From: a virus
Virus record (IMG/VR): IMGVR_UViG_3300042691_007427
Span: 1-23,820 of that record
Direction: 5' to 3' (one strand)
DNA length: 23,820 nt
Part shown: one piece after another, positions 4,375 through 21,650 of the stretch
Numbering within the stretch: position 1 is the first letter of the stretch
Layout: every line of letters starts with the position of its first letter
Notes under the pieces: generated by a model
Told to the model about the DNA's origin: nothing
Seen by the model: only the letters and a program-made list of their open reading frames with translations
Databases searched by the model: none
Translations under genes and position numbers: made by a program

Positions 4375-4391
4375 GCCCGTGGAGGCTGGTG

Positions 4392-5198
4392 ATGACGTTT
4401 TTCTATCCGTCGAGTACGTTCGAGGACAAACACGAGCCGTTTGAGCTACAGGTATCACGTGGCCTGATCGCAGGTCATCGCGCGGTTCACGTCTTTGGTT
4501 ATAACTTTGACGTCGATACGACGGAAACGACGGTGTGGCCGCACATCGGCAAGATACCACACCCAGCCGCAGCACTACAGATGAGTGTTAGCTCCACCAG
4601 CGCGAGCGACGCGGCCGCAGGCACTGGGGCACGGACGGTACTCGTGCGTGGGTTGGACGCTAACTACCACGAGATTAGTGAGACCGTCACACTTAATGGG
4701 CAGACGGCGGTTACTACGACAAACGCGTTTATCCGCGTTAACTATTTGCGAGTGATGACTTCTGGGTCATCGCTGTCTGCTGCTGGGGATATTTATATTG
4801 GGTCGGGGGTTGTCACAGCAGGTGTGCCAGCCACGGTGTATGACCTGATTAAGTATGACTACAACAACTCCATCACAGCGCACTACACCATACCTGCTGG
4901 GTATACAGGGTATGTGATGCAGGGGTTGTTCTCGGCTGGGCAGAGTGGTGGCACCGCGCCGGTACGTGGTCGTCTGCTGACTACAGACCTCAACGGAATA
5001 CGTCACACTGCTGCTGTGACCACCGTCAACAACGGGGTGGCGGACTACGCGTTCGAGTATCCCATCGCGATACCTGAGAAGATTGACATCGAGGCGACGG
5101 CGGTGGGTGTGTCGCAGAACAACGAGGCGTCTGCGATGTTTATTATTGTGCTGGTCGAGGGTTCGCAGCAGCCCGCACCCGGCATACCGAGGATCTGA
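4392..5198 (+). CDS. Conserved phage beta-rich structural protein, 268 aa
   Basis: The ATG at 4392 has GGAGG 6 nt upstream; the GTG just before it is less well placed. From memory this belongs to a widespread phage family recognised by an N-terminal pattern like QVSRGLIAGHRAVHVFG, a DVDTTETTVW segment, then VRGLDANYHEISETVTLNGQ. All three are present (residues about 17-33, 38-48 and 80-99). The rest is strand-rich with Thr, Ser and Gly (AHYTIPAGYTGYVMQGLFSA). No catalytic residues are evident. The place between terL and portal, with only 2 bp before the portal gene, points to a virion protein, perhaps on the capsid or head-tail joint. The exact role is unknown to me. Confidence 0.75.
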   Translation: MTFFYPSSTFEDKHEPFELQVSRGLIAGHRAVHVFGYNFDVDTTETTVWPHIGKIPHPAAALQMSVSSTSASDAAAGTGARTVLVRGLDANYHEISETVTLNGQTAVTTTNAFIRVNYLRVMTSGSSLSAAGDIYIGSGVVTAGVPATVYDLIKYDYNNSITAHYTIPAGYTGYVMQGLFSAGQSGGTAPVRGRLLTTDLNGIRHTAAVTTVNNGVADYAFEYPIAIPEKIDIEATAVGVSQNNEASAMFIIVLVEGSQQPAPGIPRI

Positions 5199-5200
5199 CC

Positions 5201-7291
5201 ATGGCACTAGGACTGGCGATCATTCCCGTGGCGAGTGCTGCGGACCTTGAGAACGAGGCGCGCAAACGCAACGACGAGATGCAGGCTCAGCCTGTGATTC
5301 AGGGTCTTGCGTCACACGTTAAAGAACGCTGGGAGAGTGCGCGCGTTGCCAAACGCCAGCTCGAAGAGCGCATGCTTAAATGCCTGCGGCAGCGCAACGG
5401 TGAGTACGACCCGGAAAAGCTGGCTGAGATCCACGAGCAGGGCGGCTCAGACATCTTCGTGCAGTTGACATCGGTTAAGTGCCGCGCGGCAACGAGCTGG
5501 TTGCGCGATACGCTCTTGGGTACCGGTGCAGATAAGCCGTGGGGACTGGACGCAACGCCAGAGCCCACGCTACCACCCGAGATCATGGCTGGGCTTCAGC
5601 AGCAGTTGACTCAGCAGATCATGGCGCACATCGAGCAGGGTGGTGTGCCGCCGACGGAAGAGCAGCTTCGCGAGGTTGCCTCGCAGATGAAAGACATGGC
5701 CATGCGGCAGCTTCAGGAAGAGGCCAACCGCAGGGTTGATCGCATGGAACGTAAGATGGAGGACCAGCTTGTTGAAGGCGGATGGTTGAAAGCCTTGAAC
5801 GAGTTTCTCGATGACATCGTGACGTTTCCTTACGCGGTCGTTAAAGGTCCCATCAAACGCAAGCGCAAAACACTTGAGTGGCAGAACGGTCAGCTTGTGC
5901 CGTCTGAGACGATCCGCAACGAGTGGGAGCGGGTCGACCCGTTCTATATCTATTGGGCACCGTGGGCATGGGAGTTGAACGACGGCTACGTCATCGAGCG
6001 ACACCGCCTGACGGCTGAGGAGTTGCAGGCGCTCATTGGTGTGCCGGGGTATAACGACGACGCCATCCGCACGGTGCTCAACGACTTTGACTCGATGGGT
6101 ATGAAACAGTGGCTGTGGACCGACGCGTCTAAAGCGCAGGCCGAAGGTAAGTACGTCACTGAGGCTGTGATCAGTGGTGACTTGATTGATGCGTTGCAGC
6201 TTTGGGATTCTGTGAAGGGCAGCTTGTTGCTTGAGTGGGGTCTTACAGAAAAAGAGATTCCTGATCCTGCGTTGAGCTACCCTTGCGAGGTGTGGTTGAT
6301 CGGCACGCAGGTTATCCGCGCGGTATTGAACTATGACCCGCTAGGTCGCAAACCGTACTACCTCACGTCGTATGAGAACCTGCCCGGTTCAGTAGAGGGC
6401 AAAGGTGTGACGGATCTTTGTCGTGATTCACAGGCGATGGTTAACGCGTCTGCGCGGTCGCTTGCGAACAACATGGGTATCTCATCTGGCCCGCAGGTGG
6501 GTGTAAATATCAGCCGGCTACCACCGGGTGAAGACATTACCGACATGCACCCGTGGAAAATCTGGCAGTTCCAGAGTAGCGAGATCAACGACGGGTCGCA
6601 GCCGCTTCAGTTCTTCATGCCGCAGAGTAACGCTACGGAACTGATGGGCGTGTTTGAGAAGTTCTCGGCACGCGCTGATGAAGACACCATGATCCCGCGA
6701 TACATGACAGGTGAGACGACACCGGGTGCGGGGCGCACTTCGTCTGGTCTGTCGATGCTCATCAGTAACGCTGGTAAAGGGATCAAGCAGGTCATTACGA
6801 ACATCGACCAGAACGTCATCATCCCGGCTATTGAGCGGTTGTATCAAGACAACCTCCGCTATAGCGAAGACCCGGACCTCATTGGTGACGTCAACATCGT
6901 GGCCAAAGGTGCGACGAGCCTCGTGGTGAAAGAGGCCGAAGCGATTCGCAAGAATGAGTTCCTACAACTCATCTTGAATAGCCCGGTGGCACAACAGATC
7001 GTTGGCCTACCCGGAACCGCTGAGCTTCTGCGCGACTCGGCTCGCAACCTGAGTGGTAACGTAGACAGGATTGTGCCGGAGCGTTCGCAGCTTAACGTCA
7101 TGCAGCAACAGCAGCAGATGATCGCCCAGTTGCAACAGCAGATCGCGATGCTCATGGGTCAGGCAGAACAGCCCGGGGCTGGTCCTGCACCTCAACAGCC
7201 TATGATGCGGCCGAGAAATGTACTGCCCGACGGTTCGCAGGTAGGCGGTCGGGAATCGAACTTTGTCTCAGCTAGACCAAACGGAGTCTGA
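5201..7291 (+). CDS. Portal protein (head-tail connector)
   Basis: The portal forms the 12-subunit ring at one capsid vertex through which DNA enters and leaves. At 696 aa it is in the range of podovirus portals. N-terminal motifs fit the family (VKERWESARVAKRQLEERML, then RAATSWLRDTLLG). A long charged helical stretch (about 125-195) leads to FPYAVVKGPIKRKRK and VDPFYIYWAPWAWELNDG. Then come SYENLPGSVEGKGVTDLCRD and RSLANNMGISSGPQVGVN, the usual stem-to-wing region. The C-terminal 60 residues are Gln-rich (VMQQQQQMIAQLQQQIAML), a probable barrel helix. AGG lies 8 nt before the ATG. It is followed after 1 bp by a small Dps-like gene rather than directly by scaffold. Confidence 0.92.
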   Translation: MALGLAIIPVASAADLENEARKRNDEMQAQPVIQGLASHVKERWESARVAKRQLEERMLKCLRQRNGEYDPEKLAEIHEQGGSDIFVQLTSVKCRAATSWLRDTLLGTGADKPWGLDATPEPTLPPEIMAGLQQQLTQQIMAHIEQGGVPPTEEQLREVASQMKDMAMRQLQEEANRRVDRMERKMEDQLVEGGWLKALNEFLDDIVTFPYAVVKGPIKRKRKTLEWQNGQLVPSETIRNEWERVDPFYIYWAPWAWELNDGYVIERHRLTAEELQALIGVPGYNDDAIRTVLNDFDSMGMKQWLWTDASKAQAEGKYVTEAVISGDLIDALQLWDSVKGSLLLEWGLTEKEIPDPALSYPCEVWLIGTQVIRAVLNYDPLGRKPYYLTSYENLPGSVEGKGVTDLCRDSQAMVNASARSLANNMGISSGPQVGVNISRLPPGEDITDMHPWKIWQFQSSEINDGSQPLQFFMPQSNATELMGVFEKFSARADEDTMIPRYMTGETTPGAGRTSSGLSMLISNAGKGIKQVITNIDQNVIIPAIERLYQDNLRYSEDPDLIGDVNIVAKGATSLVVKEAEAIRKNEFLQLILNSPVAQQIVGLPGTAELLRDSARNLSGNVDRIVPERSQLNVMQQQQQMIAQLQQQIAMLMGQAEQPGAGPAPQQPMMRPRNVLPDGSQVGGRESNFVSARPNGV

Positions 7292-7292
7292 T

Positions 7293-7667
7293 ATGAAAGG
7301 CATTACTGCCACTGCCACATTTGAGGGCTTCGTTGCCATGGCGCAGCATGCCCTAACGAACACACGTCAGCAGCATTGGAGGACTCGTAGCTTCGCTCAG
7401 CACGAAGCACTTAGCGAGTTCTATGAAAAGTTTTCTGAGAAATTAGACGAGACCGTGGAGTGCTATCAGGGAAGGGAAAATCTGATCGTGGTCCCAGAAA
7501 TGTCGTTTCATAAAGAAGCGGACCCGGTCGTCATGATCAAGACGATGCGTAGGTTTCTCGATGAGAACCGGGATGTGATGACCAGTTATCGCGAGATCCA
7601 GAATCAGTTTGACGAGTTGATCTCGATCATGAATAAAGCGCTGTACAAACTACAGTTTCTTGCTTGA
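7293..7667 (+). CDS. Small Dps/ferritin-like phage protein, 124 aa
   Basis: The ATG at 7293 has GGAG 6 nt upstream. The core reads TRQQHWRTRSFAQHEALSEF (residues 24-43) and then KFSEKLDETVECYQG (46-60), closely like the first half of Dps proteins. The residues H28, H37, D52 and E56 line up with the ferroxidase residues of E. coli Dps (H51, H63, D78, E82): the H-D and D-E spacings are identical (15 and 4), while the H-H spacing is 3 shorter. Two further helices follow (DPVVMIKTMRRFLDENRDVM and REIQNQFDELISIMNKALYK), giving a four-helix bundle. It may belong to DUF5856, a phage family I recall as ferritin-like. It is shorter than Dps (about 167 aa) and lacks its DNA-binding N-tail. It could bind metal, pack in the virion or act in the cell; none is proven. 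Confidence 0.7.
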   Translation: MKGITATATFEGFVAMAQHALTNTRQQHWRTRSFAQHEALSEFYEKFSEKLDETVECYQGRENLIVVPEMSFHKEADPVVMIKTMRRFLDENRDVMTSYREIQNQFDELISIMNKALYKLQFLA

Positions 7668-7700: not shown

Positions 7701-7943
7701 ATGAGTCAGTTTATTGGTACTAAGCCTGAACGGAAGCACATGCAAGCGTTATCGCGCTGCAAGCTGCCGGAGAACGAGGCGTTGATGGATTTGATGAAGC
7801 AGACACTATTCGACATTAAAACTCGACTGGTGGAAGCGGAGCAGCCATCTCGCATCGCTCAACTTCAGGGGCAGGCCAGACTGATTATTGATTTCCTCGA
7901 CGCGGTCGAAAGATCGCAAGAGATCTTAACGCGGCTTAAATAA
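7701..7943 (+). CDS. Hypothetical 80-aa helical protein
   Basis: I do not recognise this protein. It is charged and helical, with a likely coiled coil in the second half (LMKQTLFDIKTRLVEAEQPS, then IDFLDAVERSQEILTRLK). No ribosome site precedes the ATG, but the promoter at 7664-7692 would place the transcript end at the start codon. The gene sits in the position where podoviruses often have one small gene between portal and scaffold. A role in head assembly is inferred from place only. Its stop is 82 bp before the scaffold gene. Confidence 0.75.
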   Translation: MSQFIGTKPERKHMQALSRCKLPENEALMDLMKQTLFDIKTRLVEAEQPSRIAQLQGQARLIIDFLDAVERSQEILTRLK

Positions 7944-8025: not shown

Positions 8026-9000
8026 ATGGCTCTCCCGAAGCAGGTTGAAGAACAACTTAGGCAGTTGGAAGAAATTGAGAAGCAGCTTGAGGCTGCGAAG
8101 GTGCCGAAAGAGTCCGCCTCGAATGAGGAAACTCTAGAAGCTCCGAGCGCGCAAGCAGAGCCGCAAGATCCTCCGAAAGCTGAAGATCCGCCTTCACCCG
8201 CTGAGACGAAGCCAGATAAATCAGCCGAGCCGGTAGTTGCCGAGGATACGTGGCAGCAGAAGTACAAGACCCTCAAGGGAATGTACGACGCTGAGGTGCC
8301 TCGACTACACGCTCAGGTAAAAGAGCTTACGGCTCAGATGGCGCGGCTTCAGAGCGCCGTTGACAAGCCCGCAGCGAAAGAGCCTGATCGGCCGACGAAG
8401 TTGGTAACGGACGCTGATGTTCAAACGTTCGGTGAGGATCTGATTGAGGTGCAGCGTAAGGTTGCACGCGAAGTAGCGATGGAGTTTCGCGCGGAGATTG
8501 ATGCGCTGAAGGCCGATAATGAGAAGTTGCGCGAGCAACTGAACACTACTGGTTCTCAGGTCATCGAGTCTACGTTCGAGCAGAGGTTGCACCGCATGGT
8601 GCCGGATTTTGACAAGGTCAACGTCGACCCGAAATGGGTCGAATGGCTGAACGAGTACGATCCGATTCTGCGCGGTCCCCGCAAACTTGTTGCTCAAGAA
8701 GCGTTCAACCGTGGCGATGCCGAAGCGGTGGCAGACTACGTGAAGATGTTCAAGCAAACAATCGCTCCCGTAGAGCCGTCGAAGTCCAAAACCGAAGAGT
8801 TAGAACGCCAGATCCAACCTCGTCGTGCTGCGACAGGTACCGGGCAGCCCGCGCCGAAAGGCAAGACGTACACCAACAAAGAGGTGGAACGTATGTTTAG
8901 ACAGGCGGCTGATCTCGGTGCTCGTGGCAAGCTCGAAGAGGCACGTAAACTTGAAGCTGAAATCGATGCTGCGTACGTAGATGGTCGTGTTACCACCTAA
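8026..9000 (+). CDS. Capsid scaffold protein
   Basis: Scaffold proteins guide coat assembly and then leave the prohead. This 324-aa protein lies directly before the coat gene and has the expected make-up: an N-terminal coiled coil (1-24), an acidic Pro/Glu linker (28-72), the segment DTWQQKYKTLKGMYDAEVP (74-92) common in such proteins, and a long coiled coil (about 93-175). A folded part follows (FEQRLHRMVPDFDKV to NRGDAEAVADYVKMF). The C-terminus is basic (QPRRAATG, KGKTYTNKEVERMFRQA), which fits coat binding in P22-type scaffolds. AAAGGAAAA precedes the ATG. No protease gene is seen nearby, so release without cleavage is plausible. Confidence 0.85.
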   Translation: MALPKQVEEQLRQLEEIEKQLEAAKVPKESASNEETLEAPSAQAEPQDPPKAEDPPSPAETKPDKSAEPVVAEDTWQQKYKTLKGMYDAEVPRLHAQVKELTAQMARLQSAVDKPAAKEPDRPTKLVTDADVQTFGEDLIEVQRKVAREVAMEFRAEIDALKADNEKLREQLNTTGSQVIESTFEQRLHRMVPDFDKVNVDPKWVEWLNEYDPILRGPRKLVAQEAFNRGDAEAVADYVKMFKQTIAPVEPSKSKTEELERQIQPRRAATGTGQPAPKGKTYTNKEVERMFRQAADLGARGKLEEARKLEAEIDAAYVDGRVTT

Positions 9001-9045: not shown

Positions 9046-10047
9046 ATGCCTGCCGTTTATCCGGTACAAGCGCCGTTTGATACGAGCACCTCGTATTCGG
9101 GCGCGTTTATCCCGACCCTGTGGTCTGGAAAGCTGCTTGCCAAGTTCTACCAGAACACCATGCTGTCGGAGATCGCCAACACCGACTACGAAGGTGAACT
9201 GAAGAACCAAGGCGACACCATTCGTATCCGTCTGGCTCCGACCATCACGATTTCTGACTACACCGCTGGTCAGAATCTGAACTACGAAGTGCCCACGCCT
9301 ATCTTCCAAGATATGCAAGTCAACAAGGGCAAATACTTCGGCGTTCAGGTCAACGACGTGCTGGCCTATCAGTCGGACATGAACCTCATGAACATGTTCA
9401 CTGAGGACGCCGCCAAGCAACTGAAGATCCAGATCGAGAACGAAGTGTTCTTCAACTGCTTCGTGACCGAAGGTCCTGCTGCCGCCAACAAAGGCGCGTC
9501 AGCTGGTGCGATCTCGGCTGCGTACAACCTCGGCACGGATACGACCCCCGTTGATCAGGCGACCCCTGAGAACGTGCTGAAGGCGATCCTGCGTATGTCG
9601 ACGGTTCTGGATGAGCAGAACGTGCCGGAAGACGGCCGTTGGCTGGTTCTGAGCCCGTACGACCGCCATCTCCTGATGCAGTCGAACCTCGCGCAAGCCT
9701 ACTTCACCGGTGACTCGTCCAGTACCATCCGTACGGGTAAGATCGGCATGATCGACCGCTTCACGGTCTATGTGTCGAACCTGCTGCCGCGCGGTGCTGC
9801 TGGTAAAGCGCTGGTGTCTGGCCTGACCGATACGGCGACCGGTGCTTCTGTTGCTAGCGCCAAGGCCCGTCGTGTCATGATGGCTGGTACCAAGGCTGCT
9901 TGCTCGTTCGCGATGACCGTGAACAAGACCGAGCCCCTGCGTAACCAGACTGACTTCGGCGATATCGTCCGTGGTCTCGCGGTTTACGGTCGTAAGACTG
10001 TCAAGCCCGAAGCTCTGGTTCTGGCTCAAGTTGGTTCGGCGACCTAA
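9046..10047 (+). CDS. Major capsid protein
   Basis: At 333 aa, directly after scaffold and with a strong ribosome site (AGGAG 6 nt before the ATG), this is the coat protein, expected to have the HK97 fold. The N-terminal half is typical: TLWSGKLLAKFYQNTMLSEI, then the E-loop-like GELKNQGDTIRIRLAPTITI and FGVQVNDVLAYQ. The middle includes PEDGRWLVLSPYDRHLLMQS, a pattern shared by many podovirus coats (WLVLSP). The C-terminus has the spine and P-domain type text AVYGRKTVKPEALVLAQV. Codon choice is more GC-rich and uniform than in its neighbours, as for highly expressed genes. Confidence 0.93.
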   Translation: MPAVYPVQAPFDTSTSYSGAFIPTLWSGKLLAKFYQNTMLSEIANTDYEGELKNQGDTIRIRLAPTITISDYTAGQNLNYEVPTPIFQDMQVNKGKYFGVQVNDVLAYQSDMNLMNMFTEDAAKQLKIQIENEVFFNCFVTEGPAAANKGASAGAISAAYNLGTDTTPVDQATPENVLKAILRMSTVLDEQNVPEDGRWLVLSPYDRHLLMQSNLAQAYFTGDSSSTIRTGKIGMIDRFTVYVSNLLPRGAAGKALVSGLTDTATGASVASAKARRVMMAGTKAACSFAMTVNKTEPLRNQTDFGDIVRGLAVYGRKTVKPEALVLAQVGSAT

Positions 10048-13568: not shown

Positions 13569-16500
13569 ATGACCACGATCGTTACCCGTGCTAGCAAGGG
13601 AACACCTCTTACGAATAACGAGGTGGATACCAATTTCACGAATCTCAACACGGATAAGCTCGAACTAGGCAGCACATTCTCATCTGGCACTGCTAATAGC
13701 GTTCTCTACCTAAACGCTAGTAAGGTAGCTACTAGCGGCAGCGTTCTTACGTTCGACGGAGCGCAGCTTGGTGTAAACGGTATTACCGTAGGCCGTGGTG
13801 CTGGGGCGGTATCTACCAATACTGCGGTAGGGGCTAGTGCGCTGGCGGCGAATACGAGTGGCCTTGAAAACACTGCGCTTGGGCGACTTGCCTCTAGGGA
13901 CAACACAACTGGCTCATATAACACCGCAGTCGGTAGCGGCCCATTACTTTTGTTGACGACTGGATCAGCCAATACGGCAATTGGTCGGGCGGCTTTGCAA
14001 GCTGCAACAACATCTTCTGATAACACCGCAGTTGGTTACAGGAGCATGATTGCAACTACCACCGGGGCATCCAACACCGCCCTTGGAAGCGAGGCTCTTC
14101 AAGCCAACACCACCGCCTCTAATAACACTGCTGTTGGGTATCAGTCAGCATTCTCAAATACGACTGGAGCAGACAACACTGCTGTCGGTTGGAATGCATT
14201 GTATGCAAACACAACTGGCAATTTACATACTGCCATTGGTAGACGGGCGCTGATTGGTAATACGACCGGAGTAGAAAATACAGCCGTTGGCGCTAGCGCC
14301 CTAGCAGCGAATACAACCGGTAGCTACAACACTGGTATTGGCAACGCTGCGCTTTTATCTAACACCACCGCCGCGTTCAATACGGCTGTTGGCTATTTGG
14401 CGATGCGGGACAACACTACCGGCAGCCAAAACACCGCCTTTGGAATTCAATCGTTAGTCTTTAACACAACTGGTGCAAATAACGTCGCAATTGGCGTTGA
14501 CGCTCTCCAGAAAAACACGACCGCCAACAACAATACGTCTGTGGGGCATCAGTCAACGTACAACAATACTACGGGCGCAAGCAACGTAGCGGTAGGTAAA
14601 GAGGCGCTTTACTCCAACACCACCGCATCTAATAACACTGCGGTTGGTTATCAAGCTGGATATACAAACACTACAGGCATACAAAATCTGTTTTTAGGAG
14701 TACAAGCGGGATATACCAATAATGGTACAAGTAATATTGCGCTAGGGTTCCAAACTTTTTACTACAACACTACTGGAAGTTCTAACGTCGCAATTGGGGT
14801 TCAAGCTCTAGTTGCTAATACCACCGCTTCTAATAATACCGCTGTAGGCTATCAGGCGGGATTTAGCAATACCACCGGCTCCGAGAACGTAGCCATCGGC
14901 CAAGGGGCGCTTTATAGCAACCAGACCGGCGTATTCAACACCGTAATCGGAAGGAACGCTGGTTATTACAGCACTGCTGGTGGCTTGACCGCTGTGGGTG
15001 AACAGGCAGCTGTAAATACTACAACTGGAATTGCAAACACGGCTCTTGGTGGGCGCGTAACTGGTGTTGCAGACGCTGCCCTACAAGGCAACACCACTGG
15101 TTCCTACAATATAGCAGTAGGCACTGGGGCGCTCGCTTCCAACACCACCGCCTCTAACAACACTGCTGTAGGTTATCTAGCAGGATACGCCGTCACCACA
15201 GGCACGGGTAACTCCTATTTCGGTCAACAGGCAGGGCCGTACACAACAGCAAGCACAGGAAGCTATAACGCTGGATTTGGTGCTGGCGCTTTGTATGGAT
15301 TAAGTAGTGGCGCGAACAATACTGCCTTGGGATATCAAGCTCTTCTTTCCAACACCACCGCATCTAACAACACTGCTGTTGGTTATCAGTCGTTTTTTGC
15401 TAATACTACTGGCGCTGAAAACACTGGGGTTGGTTATCAATCCGGCTATAGCAACGTCGGTGCGTCGTACAACACGTTTTTTGGCTTTAGGGCCGGGTAT
15501 GTAAATAACACCGGTAGCGTTAACACCGGAATTGGGCGACTTGCACTTGGCGGGGCAGGCGCTGGGGTTACTGGAAGCAATAACACGGCGATAGGAAACG
15601 CCTCGCTGTATACGGTGACTAGCGGCTCTAATAATTTTGCTGGTGGCGTTGAGGCGATGCGGTTTAACACTACCGGCGCAAACAACGTAGGTATCGGTCA
15701 TGAAGCGCTGTGGAGCAGTACCACCGCATCTAACAACACGGCGGTAGGCTACCAAGCGGGTTGGGCAAATACTACCGGCGCAAATAACACGTTCATTGGT
15801 ATGTACTCAGGCACTTCAGTGTCTACGGGTTCATCCAACGTCGGTCTTGGGTATCAGGCATATGGTGCTAATGCTGGATCGACGGGTAGTTATAACGTAG
15901 GTATCGGCCAGCAAGCCCTGTTCTCTAATACCACCGCATCCAACAATACTGCTGTTGGTTACCAAGCTGCTTATAGCAACACCACTGGTGGCGTAACTGC
16001 GCTTGGCCGTCAAGCCGCTTACAGTAACTCCGTTGGCTACATCATTGCGATTGGGGACACGGCCGCATATAGCTATAACTCCTCTGCTGAGAACTATGGC
16101 TCGATAATGATTGGTGGTGTAGCCGGATACAACACTAGTACCGGCAGAGATAATACAGTTCTGGGTTCGTATGCTTTCCGATTTAATACTACTGGCAGTT
16201 TTAATATTGCAATTGGAAATGCAAGTTTATATTCCAACACCACGGCTTCCAACAACACTGCGATAGGTTATCAAGCGATGCTTGATAGCACCGGGGCTAA
16301 TAACACGGCTCTCGGCTATCAGGCTCTACAAACAAATAATGCGGGCGGAACAAATAACGTAGCAATCGGTTATCAAGCCAATCGAAATAATACTTCCGGC
16401 AACTACAACGTTTCGGTTGGATTGCAAAGTCTATTAAGCAATAGTAGCGGCACTGCTAATACTGCGCTGGGTTATCAAGCGCTTAACGCCAATACCACAG

Positions 16501-19013
16501 CAGATTACAACACTGCCGTCGGGTATCAATCGCAATACGTCAACACTACCGGTGTAAGCAATACATCTGTAGGTCGTGGTGCTCTGTACGGATATCTCGG
16601 ACTTGGCACCGGTTCGTATAATTCGGCGTTCGGAGACTTAGCGCTATTTGAGAATAGCACCGGACTTTCTAATACTGCGATTGGTGCATACGCTCTTCGG
16701 CTAAGTACAACTGCTTCTAACAACACTGCTGTTGGTTATCAGGCATCTTACTCAAACACAGTAAACAGCAACACCACGGTTGGCTATCAAGCAGGTTATG
16801 CCAACACAACTGGCGGTGTAACTGCGGTGGGCTTTACTGCGTTGTACGCCAATACAACTGGCGTTGCAAATACAGCAATGGGTTGGAAAACTCTTGATGC
16901 CAACACCACTGGCGGTTTCAACACTGCATTTGGTGAAGAGGCTTTGGGAGGAAACACCACAGCTTCTTACAACACTGCCGTCGGTTATCAGGCAGGGTTT
17001 AGTAATACGACTGCAACTCAGAATAACTTTTTTGGTTACCGGGCTGGTTATAACACCACGACTGGTGGATCAAATACCGCGCTATCTCAAGGCGCTCTTC
17101 AAAGCAACACTACTGGCGGCGCAAATGTAGCGGTTGGCACGGAGGCGTTATTCTCTAACACCACCGCCATCAACAACACCGCTGTTGGATATCAAGCCGG
17201 ATATACAAATACTACCGGAAACTACAACACCGCTACTGGATATAAGTCCTATTACTTAAATACGACAGGCGAGCGTAATGCAGCATTTGGTTTCGAGGCT
17301 TTATATAGCAATACAACGGGCTTCCGTAACACTGCAATTGGTATGTGGGCGCTACAGGCCAACACTACCGCCTCTAATAACACTGCCGTTGGATATCAAG
17401 CCGCCTACAGCAACACTGCTGAAACCGGCCTAACAGCTATTGGATATCGGGCTTTATATAGCAATACGACCGGGAATTTGTGTACTGCCGTCGGCACTAG
17501 TGCGCTTGAAAACAATACAGGCGGAGTTCGTAATGATGCATTTGGCTTGGCCGCGCTGTATAGCAACACAACTGGTAACTACAACGTAGCGGTTGGTGGC
17601 TACGATAGCTCTGGATACTCTGCGTTATATACCAACACAACCGGTAGCAGTAATACCGCCATTGGAACTGGAACGTTAGCAAAGAACACCACCGCCTCTA
17701 CCAATACTGCCGTAGGTTATCAGGCCGGGTACGCGAATACGACTGGTTTTCTCGATGCTTTCGGTGCGTTTGCTTTGCTGAGCAATACAACCGGCAATTA
17801 CAACAAGGCGTTCGGTGAATCCGCTTTACGCTCAAATACTGTAGGTAACGGAAACTGTGCGTTTGGTGGTTCTGCGTTAAGGAACAATACTACTGCTTCC
17901 GAAAACTCTGCGTTCGGCGAGTCTGCGCTTCGGGCAAATACAACGGGCGCTTACAATACGTCGGTTGGTGCATCAGCCCTCTACTCCAACACCAGCGCTG
18001 GCTTTAACACTGCTGTTGGTTATCGGGCTGGGTACACTAATACTACGGCGCAATATAGTGTTTATGTTGGTGTTGAAGCAGGACTTACATCCAATGCTGA
18101 ACGAAACACAATTGTTGGCGCGTATGCAGGTCAGCTTGTAACGGGAGCAAACAACACCTTAATTGGTCAAGATGCTGGCGCTGTGTTAACCACTGGCGCA
18201 AAGACCACCATCATCGGTCGCTACAACGGCAACCAAGGTGGCCTCGACATCCGCACTGCTAACAACTACATCGTGCTGTCGGATGGGGATGGGAATCCGA
18301 GAGGGTTCTTCACTGGTAGTGGAGACTTAGTTGTAAACGACACCGCCCCGGTTCTTAATGGTCAAACCACGCTTTCTCAGCGAACTGCTTCCGGAGCAGG
18401 AAGCACAAACCTTGTTTTGCAGCAATTTCATGCTGGAACAAAGGCTATTGATTTTGGTTGGTATGGGTCAACAATCGGATCAATAGCTAACGTCGGTGGC
18501 ACAGAGATAACATATGCAACTACCAATACTTCAACTACCGGAGCTCAACTTGTAAGGGCTGGTGTTTCTTTCCCCGCCACCCAATCCGCATCCTCTGACG
18601 CCAACACGCTAGACGATTATGAGGAAGGCGACTTTTCTTCGAGTGTCGCAATCTCAGGGTACACGACAGCAGGAACTGGAACATACACAACTAAAACTGC
18701 GTTTTACACAAAGATAGGTAACGTAGTCCATTATCAGATTTATCTAAACTGGACGGCCCATACTGGTACTGGAAATATGCTTATTACCGGACTGCCTTTT
18801 ACATCAAGAGGAGGCAGTAGTTATGCCGGATCGGCAATCGGGTACTTTCACAACATTGCCCTTACTGCTTCAAACGTTCCAACTCTTTATGTTTTGCAAA
18901 ATTCTACGACTATTGAATGGTATCAATTTGCTGTTGGCGGCGGAACGGCCACTGGAATTGCGTTAGATACCGCCGGAGAGATTATTTGCAGCGGCACTTA
19001 TATTGTAGCTTAA
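13569..19013 (+). CDS. Giant repeat tail fibre/adhesin, 1814 aa
   Basis: This gene takes 5.4 kb. Residues 1-30 (TRASKGTPLTNNEVDTNFTN, then LNTDKLELG) are a typical phage fibre start that should attach to the tail. Residues about 82-1556 are about 85 tandem copies of a 17-residue unit, best NTTASNNTAVGYQAGYS and NTTGSNNVAIGxxALYS. The NxAxGxxA core resembles YadA-like head repeats, which form trimeric left-handed beta rolls, so a trimeric fibre is likely. From about 1557 (GGLDIRTANNYIVLSDGDGN) the repeats stop. FPATQSASSDANTLDDYEEG marks a region common before phage fibre tips, and the last 120 residues look like a separate beta-rich tip, likely to bind the host. No S74 self-cleaving chaperone is seen at the end. 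GAGG precedes the ATG. Six-frame shadows here are products of the repeats. Confidence 0.9.
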   Translation: MTTIVTRASKGTPLTNNEVDTNFTNLNTDKLELGSTFSSGTANSVLYLNASKVATSGSVLTFDGAQLGVNGITVGRGAGAVSTNTAVGASALAANTSGLENTALGRLASRDNTTGSYNTAVGSGPLLLLTTGSANTAIGRAALQAATTSSDNTAVGYRSMIATTTGASNTALGSEALQANTTASNNTAVGYQSAFSNTTGADNTAVGWNALYANTTGNLHTAIGRRALIGNTTGVENTAVGASALAANTTGSYNTGIGNAALLSNTTAAFNTAVGYLAMRDNTTGSQNTAFGIQSLVFNTTGANNVAIGVDALQKNTTANNNTSVGHQSTYNNTTGASNVAVGKEALYSNTTASNNTAVGYQAGYTNTTGIQNLFLGVQAGYTNNGTSNIALGFQTFYYNTTGSSNVAIGVQALVANTTASNNTAVGYQAGFSNTTGSENVAIGQGALYSNQTGVFNTVIGRNAGYYSTAGGLTAVGEQAAVNTTTGIANTALGGRVTGVADAALQGNTTGSYNIAVGTGALASNTTASNNTAVGYLAGYAVTTGTGNSYFGQQAGPYTTASTGSYNAGFGAGALYGLSSGANNTALGYQALLSNTTASNNTAVGYQSFFANTTGAENTGVGYQSGYSNVGASYNTFFGFRAGYVNNTGSVNTGIGRLALGGAGAGVTGSNNTAIGNASLYTVTSGSNNFAGGVEAMRFNTTGANNVGIGHEALWSSTTASNNTAVGYQAGWANTTGANNTFIGMYSGTSVSTGSSNVGLGYQAYGANAGSTGSYNVGIGQQALFSNTTASNNTAVGYQAAYSNTTGGVTALGRQAAYSNSVGYIIAIGDTAAYSYNSSAENYGSIMIGGVAGYNTSTGRDNTVLGSYAFRFNTTGSFNIAIGNASLYSNTTASNNTAIGYQAMLDSTGANNTALGYQALQTNNAGGTNNVAIGYQANRNNTSGNYNVSVGLQSLLSNSSGTANTALGYQALNANTTADYNTAVGYQSQYVNTTGVSNTSVGRGALYGYLGLGTGSYNSAFGDLALFENSTGLSNTAIGAYALRLSTTASNNTAVGYQASYSNTVNSNTTVGYQAGYANTTGGVTAVGFTALYANTTGVANTAMGWKTLDANTTGGFNTAFGEEALGGNTTASYNTAVGYQAGFSNTTATQNNFFGYRAGYNTTTGGSNTALSQGALQSNTTGGANVAVGTEALFSNTTAINNTAVGYQAGYTNTTGNYNTATGYKSYYLNTTGERNAAFGFEALYSNTTGFRNTAIGMWALQANTTASNNTAVGYQAAYSNTAETGLTAIGYRALYSNTTGNLCTAVGTSALENNTGGVRNDAFGLAALYSNTTGNYNVAVGGYDSSGYSALYTNTTGSSNTAIGTGTLAKNTTASTNTAVGYQAGYANTTGFLDAFGAFALLSNTTGNYNKAFGESALRSNTVGNGNCAFGGSALRNNTTASENSAFGESALRANTTGAYNTSVGASALYSNTSAGFNTAVGYRAGYTNTTAQYSVYVGVEAGLTSNAERNTIVGAYAGQLVTGANNTLIGQDAGAVLTTGAKTTIIGRYNGNQGGLDIRTANNYIVLSDGDGNPRGFFTGSGDLVVNDTAPVLNGQTTLSQRTASGAGSTNLVLQQFHAGTKAIDFGWYGSTIGSIANVGGTEITYATTNTSTTGAQLVRAGVSFPATQSASSDANTLDDYEEGDFSSSVAISGYTTAGTGTYTTKTAFYTKIGNVVHYQIYLNWTAHTGTGNMLITGLPFTSRGGSSYAGSAIGYFHNIALTASNVPTLYVLQNSTTIEWYQFAVGGGTATGIALDTAGEIICSGTYIVA
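13812..18236 (+). repeat. Tandem 51-bp degenerate repeats in the fibre gene
   Basis: The 17-residue units give a 51-bp period over 4.4 kb. The first two NTTASNN units lie 510 bp apart (14106 and 14616), exactly ten periods. About eleven units carry the near-identical NTTASNNTAVGYQ version, for example at 14106, 14616, about 15350 and about 15928, every 4-10 units. Third codon positions vary freely (AAC/AAT, ACC/ACT/ACA), so copies are old or recombined rather than fresh slippage products. A few units have inserts or deletions of a few residues. Confidence 0.9.
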
Positions 19014-20603: not shown

Positions 20604-20991
20604 GGTTGGATCGAAGATTTTAGATAGGGTCATGCCTGACCCTGAGGCTGCTGCCAAAGCCAAGCAGGAGCTTGCGCAGCTAGAGCAAAACGGTGAACTC
20701 GCCAAGATGGCGAACGAGACCAAGCTCTTTCAATTGAACGTTGAGAACACTAAATCCGCTCGGGAGATGCAGGTTGCGACCCGCAGCAAAATACCTGCGG
20801 TGCTGTCCATCGTCACGGTCGCCGGGTTCTTCGGTTTGCTCGTAGGTTCTGCGTTGGGCTACATGACTTTGACAGGCTCTGATGTCATGATGCTCTTGCT
20901 CGGCGTGCTCGCACGCGAGACGGCCTCTGTCTACAACTTTTGGCTCGGCTCCTCGAACTCCAGTCAAACCAAGGATCTGATGAAGAAATGA
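20578..20991 (+). CDS. Holin, GTA 3TM holin family-like, 137 aa
   Basis: The ATG at 20578 has AAGGAG 6 nt upstream; the ATG at 20572 touches that site and is too close. A charged helical N-terminus (AAAKAKQELAQLEQNGEL) is followed by membrane spans at about 72-96 (IPAVLSIVTVAGFFGLLVGS) and 102-118 (DVMMLLLGVLARETASV). The ending NFWLGSSNSSQTKDLMKK matches the conserved xxFGSSxGSxxK end of the holin family named for gene transfer agents. Holins make the membrane lesion that lets endolysin out. The stop overlaps the endolysin start (ATGA at 20988-20991), the usual pairing. Confidence 0.85.
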   Translation: MLPLGPLLEVGSKILDRVMPDPEAAAKAKQELAQLEQNGELAKMANETKLFQLNVENTKSAREMQVATRSKIPAVLSIVTVAGFFGLLVGSALGYMTLTGSDVMMLLLGVLARETASVYNFWLGSSNSSQTKDLMKK

Positions 20992-21650
20992 TCATCACCC
21001 TAGATCAATTACGCGCGGCAACGGGTGCTAACGAAGCGAACGCTGAGAAGTACCTTAAGCCGCTCAATGATGCGATGGGACTCTATAACATCGACGACCC
21101 ACGAGTCGTTGCAGGGTTCCTCAGTCAGGTCGGCCATGAGTCCGGTGGTCTGGCTACAGTCGTTGAGAACCTCAACTACCGCGTCGCTGCGCTTACCTCA
21201 CTATTCGGCCGGCACCGCATCAGCGAAGCAGATGCCAAAGCCTATGGACGTGACGACGCTACAGGCCAGAAAGCCAATCAAGAAGCGATCGCAAACATCA
21301 TCTATGGCGGTGACTTCGGTCGTAAGAACCTTGGCAATACAGAGCAAGGCGACGGGTGGAAGTATCGCGGTCGAGGTCTTAAGCAGCTTACAGGTCGAGC
21401 GAACTACAAAGCCTGTGGTGAGTCGCTTGGTCTGAATCTAATTGATGACCCTGATCAGCTTGCGCAACCTGTAGCTGCGGCGCTTTCTGCTGCATGGTTC
21501 TGGGCTTCACGCCGTGGTCTGGGTATTGAAGACGCCGCAGAAGCTGGTGATGTGCGTAAAATGACAAAGTTGATCAACGGCGGTGATATTGGCCTACCCC
21601 AGCGCGAAGCGCTGTATGCTGAAGCTCTGAGGGCAATTGAGGTGGCGTAA
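20988..21650 (+). CDS. Endolysin, glycoside hydrolase family 19
   Basis: Length 220 aa. GH19 enzymes cut beta-1,4 links and in phages act on peptidoglycan. The family pattern is clear: FLSQVGHESGGLATVVENLN, with catalytic Glu probably E51 and a second Glu at E60; then GGDFGRKNLGNTEQGDGWKY and RGRGLKQLTGRANYK; and ALSAAWFWASRRGL. No signal peptide is present, so release depends on the holin next door. The ATG at 20988 overlaps the holin stop. The enzyme's own stop overlaps the next ATG (TAATG at 21648-21652), which ties lysis to the tail gene that follows. Confidence 0.93.
   Translation: MIITLDQLRAATGANEANAEKYLKPLNDAMGLYNIDDPRVVAGFLSQVGHESGGLATVVENLNYRVAALTSLFGRHRISEADAKAYGRDDATGQKANQEAIANIIYGGDFGRKNLGNTEQGDGWKYRGRGLKQLTGRANYKACGESLGLNLIDDPDQLAQPVAAALSAAWFWASRRGLGIEDAAEAGDVRKMTKLINGGDIGLPQREALYAEALRAIEVA

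Follow-up and report, generated by a model that had tools for sequence, protein, structure and literature searches.

A predicted Dps-like metal-binding protein of family DUF5856 encoded next to the portal gene of a phage

Introduction

What is a 124-aa protein with the residues of an iron-oxidising site doing in the head operon of a phage? The question is raised by the small gene at positions 7293..7667 (+ strand) of the window, the term used here for the whole stretch of DNA that was analysed, a virus record of 23,820 bases that carries terminase, portal, scaffold-like, capsid, adaptor, tail and lysis genes on its + strand. An earlier note, made from the letters alone, had pointed to Dps-like ferroxidase residues in this gene and had suggested that its product might be a virion part. 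Dps is a bacterial protein that sequesters iron and so shields DNA. The best reading of the evidence assembled below, held at a probability of roughly 55%, is that the gene encodes a late protein associated with the virion, which would bind metal in a Dps-like manner at a site lying across a dimer, oxidise Fe(II) and limit Fenton damage.

Dps proteins encoded by phages are already published, as is a 'ferritin' in Vi01-like virions for which a Ferrojan-horse role was proposed (PMC10892097). New here are the connection of the window protein with the ferritin of phage Sajous1, T4 rI.-1 and the Dps site, and three traits of the family: invariance of its ligands, loops of two lengths and lack of the fifth ligand.

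Genomic context

The gene was delimited by its ORF call, its family matches and its predicted fold. Its ATG (7293) lies one base past the stop codon (7289-7291) of the gene directly upstream, and a GGAG ribosome-binding motif can be read from the sequence 6 bases ahead of the ATG (7283..7286, + strand). The upstream gene (5201..7291, + strand) encodes the portal or head-tail connector protein, as identified by PF23899 SU10 portal (3.2e-8) and phrog_332 (1.6e-57). Downstream follow an 80-aa gene (7701..7943, + strand) that has no family match above the cut-off in Pfam and PHROG searches, a coiled-coil gene (8026..9000, + strand) that matches phrog_13678, a family with no assigned function, and is called scaffold-like by its position, and the major capsid gene (9046..10047, + strand; PF25209; phrog_267 1.2e-53). 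The placement between portal and scaffold in a head operon, as originally described, is therefore upheld by profile matches for the portal and by position for the scaffold. The endolysin gene (20940-21650) is far from this locus.

The order terminase, small gene, portal, DUF5856 gene, 80-aa gene, scaffold-like gene, capsid is kept in two relatives (L001 and L002), in which the DUF5856 protein is 87% identical to that of the window, and a third relative (L003) has the same order up to the end of its contig. The window has no Rfam match, and a promoter search near the DUF5856 gene gave nothing above chance.

Three further observations concern other genes of this group. The gene at 4389-5198, which separates terminase from portal, shares 47% identity with its counterpart in L001 and 78% with those in L002 and L003; since the terminase and portal are about 91-92% identical, this gene appears to be fast-evolving or swapped. 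The major capsid gene is uninterrupted in the window and in L002, unlike in L001, where an interruption of about 1 kb (L001:9894-10891) codes for a 286-aa LAGLIDADG homing endonuclease (PF03161, 1.9e-26) and matches no Rfam intron family. Finally, positions 13569-19013 encode a 1,814-aa repeat protein with many NTTGxxNTAVGxxAL-like units, whose first 810 residues have matches to PHROG virion structural and tail spike families; no Pfam family covers its whole length.

In other phages, the DUF5856 gene is found directly after the portal gene (DSL-LC05), two small ORFs ahead of the gene for a head-to-tail connecting protein (MW202711), or adjoining tail-fibre, endolysin, holin or internal-virion genes, with several podoviruses having it beside holin or endolysin genes. 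It overlaps the antiholin gene rI in T4 (as rI.-1), lies beside a lysis-inhibition gene in ValerieMcCarty03 (gp108), and has an HNH endonuclease gene upstream in one IMG/VR group. The common factor is mostly a late structural or lysis module, without a single fixed slot.

Family assignment

The window protein matches Pfam DUF5856 (PF19174) over the full length of the model with 62.3 bits, well over the curated cut-off of 34.6, which answers the profile search that the earlier note had proposed. It also matches PHROG_858 (1.3e-18), as does T4 rI.-1, also named MobD.6 (9e-55). Pfam describes the function of DUF5856 as unknown, and PHROG_858 is labelled 'starvation-inducible transcriptional regulator', which looks like a distortion of the name behind Dps, 'DNA protection during starvation'. 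A literature search found no paper naming DUF5856. Weak matches to the unrelated families DHR-2, RIN1 and Sul3 fell below the cut-off and were set aside.

The family is widespread among tailed phages: tblastn searches with the window protein and with the T4-like member of phage phT4A matched 416 phage records and 1,418 records, respectively. Searches of bacterial genomes with the window protein gave no relatives, while those with another family member gave one match, on a 4.1-kb contig of an alphaproteobacterial MAG. E. coli Dps used as query against IMG/VR likewise returned no relatives. When the predicted structure of the window protein is searched against BFVD, predicted proteins of Pithovirus LCPAC404 and Fadolivirus are matched (Foldseek E 0.0009 and 0.003), so the family may reach beyond phages into giant viruses of eukaryotes.

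Site residues

Four residues make up the predicted metal site. H28, the first ligand, is encoded at 7374-7376 and followed by W29 (both codons 7374..7379, + strand) at the end of helix A; H37, the second ligand, is encoded at 7401..7403 (+ strand) at the start of helix B; and D52 and E56, the third and fourth ligands, are encoded at 7446..7448 and 7458..7460 (both + strand) in the middle of helix B. The residues, the D and E spacings of 15 and 4 and the length of 124 aa are as first reported. The Dps spacings used in that comparison are also right, as the invariant H51, H63, D78 and E82 of E. coli Dps are separated by gaps of 12, 15 and 4.

None of the four residues varies in 36 IMG/VR homologues or in a set of 11 divergent sequences, whose identity outside the window group is 21-34%. 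Among 99 distinct homologues that were fetched, the pattern H...H-15-D-4-E is kept in 98 of the 98 intact ones, the 99th being a fragment that ends before the Glu and was left out. As a control, the window protein was shuffled, and H-(8 to 12)-H-15-D-4-E arose in 311 of 200,000 permutations. This frequency and the invariance in all 98 homologues, including those at 21-34% identity, indicate that the pattern is more than chance.

The gap between the two histidines is indeed 3 residues shorter than in Dps, but the doubt that had been drawn from this does not stand, since sister proteins have a gap of 12. Of the 98 homologues, 60 have a gap of 9, 37 a gap of 12 and one a gap of 18; the family thus has two common loop lengths, the shorter of which occurs here, and the 37 members with the longer one have the spacing of E. 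coli Dps. The idea that the short gap abolishes the site was rejected on the same grounds. Position H37+4, where Dps has its fifth, acidic ligand (D67 in E. coli), is occupied by Gly in 89/98 homologues and by Ser in the window protein (S41, followed by E42, as noted earlier), which makes the missing acidic ligand a family-wide trait. An extra His, 3 residues N-terminal of H28, is present in 94/98 homologues and replaced by Arg in the window protein.

A separate observation concerns the rI.-1 gene in the T4 mutant record OZ209057 (L149:1195-1377), which differs from that of the T4 reference (L150:520-906) by only two changes. The codon of the second ligand His becomes one for Pro, and about 55 bases further on a one-base insertion shifts the frame before the ligand Glu. 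The T4 reference copy is intact.

Predicted fold

AlphaFold2, run on a single chain with 36 sequences, predicts the window protein as a four-helix bundle (helices 6-30, 34-62, 78-96 and 100-123) with pLDDT 90. In a VIA-align comparison, M. smegmatis Dps2 (MsDps2) ranks first (Z 15.0; 120 residues at 2.2 A), and Dps or other ferritin-like proteins make up nearly all of the 50 matches listed. A second family member, with the 12-residue gap, is predicted with pLDDT 95, and 50/50 among the matches listed in its Foldseek search against the PDB are Dps or Dps-derived. The best Foldseek E-values against the PDB are modest for both models (0.04 for the window protein and 0.02 for the second member), and Z scores for helical bundles can be inflated; the weight of the argument therefore rests on ligands, profile match and fold taken together. 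Both models have no BC helix, with none placed between residues 62 and 78 of the window protein.

At the sequence level, phmmer with the single window protein gives weak Dps matches (0.03 and above). A profile of 11 homologues searched against PDB sequences is led by Dps-family chains (1.1e-5) with the ligands aligned, and hhalign against eight Dps sequences gives a probability of 91% (E 9e-7) with the four ligands in register. The earlier note had named two findings that would refute its proposal, a fold other than a four-helix bundle and site residues that vary among homologues; the predicted fold and the invariant residues speak in its favour on both counts, and the residues that it singled out correspond by HMM and hhalign to H51, H63, D78 and E82 of E. 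coli Dps. The four-helix Dps-like fold is almost certain, and a metal site is very probable.

The window protein has one Lys/Arg in its first 15 residues, no Lys-rich N-terminal tail and a negative net charge, so DNA binding through a tail in the style of E. coli Dps is unlikely. Many Dps proteins likewise have no Lys-rich N-terminal tail.

Relatives in virion preparations

The suggestion of a virion part finds support in relatives studied by published mass spectrometry. LIMEstone1 ORF78, which has a predicted late promoter upstream, was identified in virions by 3 peptides with 28% coverage (PMC3296691). Sajous1 gp217, assigned as ferritin by Phyre2, was found in CsCl-purified particles with 10 spectra, and the authors consider that proteins with low counts are possibly contaminants (PMC10892097). 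In CsCl-purified virions of ValerieMcCarty03 and ValerieMcCarty04, the 'starvation-inducible transcriptional regulator' has 26 and 27 spectrum matches, counts equal to those of the baseplate proteins (PMC13119998). The annotation of another family member, phiR1-37 g280, is that of a structural protein of the phage. Membership of PHROG_858 was confirmed for LIMEstone1 ORF78, Sajous1 gp217, ValerieMcCarty03 gp108 and phiR1-37 g280, which means that the virion-linked members span Ackermannviridae, Straboviridae and a jumbo phage, all being distant relatives of the window protein. One T4 omics paper makes no mention of rI.-1. By analogy with these relatives, the protein is probably also present in the virion of the window phage.

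Discussion

The window protein is best read as a Dps-like protein of the ferritin superfamily in shortened form, which would be expressed together with the late structural genes and would most likely be present in the virion. In the model, the turn that joins helices A and B has H28 on one side and H37 on the other, and helix B reaches D52 and E56 only after another 15-19 residues. A single chain cannot put H37 and D52 on one metal, since 15 residues on one predicted helix span about 22 A (1.5 A per residue). As in Dps, the site would instead be shared across a two-fold axis, H28/H37 coming from one subunit and D52/E56 from its partner. Fe(II) may then be bound and oxidised with H2O2 or O2, so that iron would be kept out of Fenton reactions close to the phage DNA, the virion proteins or the infected cell. 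Ferroxidase activity is, on balance, slightly favoured, and the site could hold another metal, iron being the presumed one. Against this reading stand the absence of the fifth acidic ligand and the BC helix that is missing from the predicted structures.

The first of these points also fits a different role, in which the protein is a structural or assembly part of the virion and H-H-D-E holds a structural metal such as Zn that stabilises a dimer or ring, with no ferroxidase activity. The detection of relatives in virions agrees with such a role, as does the position of the gene, which adjoins the portal gene in DSL-LC05 and in the window group and is near the connector in MW202711. The gene nevertheless has no fixed structural slot across phages, unlike an obligate assembly part, and its ligand set and spacing fit a ferroxidase site, so a purely structural metal is considered rather unlikely. 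A further alternative is that the resemblance is accidental and the protein an ordinary helical bundle with His, Asp and Glu spaced by chance. Such bundles are common and the Foldseek match of the window model to the PDB is weak, but ligands kept in every intact homologue, 37 homologues with the 12-residue gap and profile searches in which Dps proteins come first leave this explanation with hardly any credibility.

Two other roles start from neighbours and from the virion itself. The overlap of rI.-1 with rI in T4, the adjoining lysis-inhibition gene in ValerieMcCarty03 and the holin or endolysin neighbours in several podoviruses would suit an intracellular late protein that acts on lysis timing or lysis inhibition, its presence in virions being carry-over; T4 genetics reportedly shows an effect of rI.-1 on lysis inhibition. 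This role is improbable for the window protein, whose gene lies in a head operon far from the endolysin gene; it also leaves the invariant metal site unexplained and sits poorly with the baseplate-like spectrum counts in ValerieMcCarty virions. Alternatively, virion-borne iron could serve as bait that lets the phage make use of the iron uptake of its host to get in, as was proposed for the same family in the Vi01-like virions of Sajous1, but the same authors saw no plating loss on TonB- and FeoB-deficient Salmonella (PMC10892097). With the gene linked to head and lysis modules besides tail genes, the bait role is very improbable.

If the preferred reading of a virion-associated Dps-like ferroxidase is true, phages may carry their own iron-handling protein. 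DUF5856 is 'unknown' to Pfam and a 'regulator' to PHROGs, yet its members have an intact, predicted four-residue Dps iron site and are reported in virions of separate phage groups. A label correction is suggested for many phage genomes, as the 1,418 records matching the phT4A member illustrate. Because T4 rI.-1 belongs to the family, the best-known laboratory phage offers an immediate test of whether phages carry an iron-oxidising protein. A broader proposal, put forward tentatively and rather doubtful, is that tailed phages ranging from small podoviruses to T4-like and jumbo myoviruses commonly have a compact Dps-like virion ferroxidase, T4 rI.-1 included, as an iron-detoxifying protein delivered or used at infection or assembly.

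Several known systems can be compared with the window protein. The Dps proteins encoded by Gratiaviridae and Lactobacillus phages, compared here by description, are portrayed in the passages considered as like bacterial Dps, with a proposed role in handling iron and oxygen in the course of infection; those passages do not report them as virion parts. Bacterial Dps proteins (E. coli Dps, M. smegmatis Dps2 and MrgA) share with the window protein a similar predicted fold, four of the five ferroxidase ligands in register, profile similarity and a Trp after the first His, but the window protein is about 40 residues shorter and has neither a BC helix (in the model) nor the fifth acidic ligand nor a Lys-rich tail. 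The protein is Dps-like in its proposed working and is not filed as a canonical Dps because the fifth ligand is absent. Sajous1 gp217 and LIMEstone1 ORF78 of the Ackermannviridae, known from virion preparations, belong to the same family but have Phe after the first His where the window protein has Trp; in their phages, which are tail-spiked myoviruses, the gene belongs to a small group of structural genes close to that for the DNA primase. T4 rI.-1 and ValerieMcCarty03 gp108, also of this family, are 128 aa long with an intact H-H-D-E set and a gap of 9, and they have the antiholin gene rI as neighbour, whereas the window gene lies in a head operon. The closest match is DUF5856 / PHROG_858 itself, which has the same ligands, length and fold, the window protein being set apart by Arg in place of the family His at H28-3 and having the more common H-H gap of 9. 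The window protein is accordingly filed as a further member of this already known, poorly characterised family.
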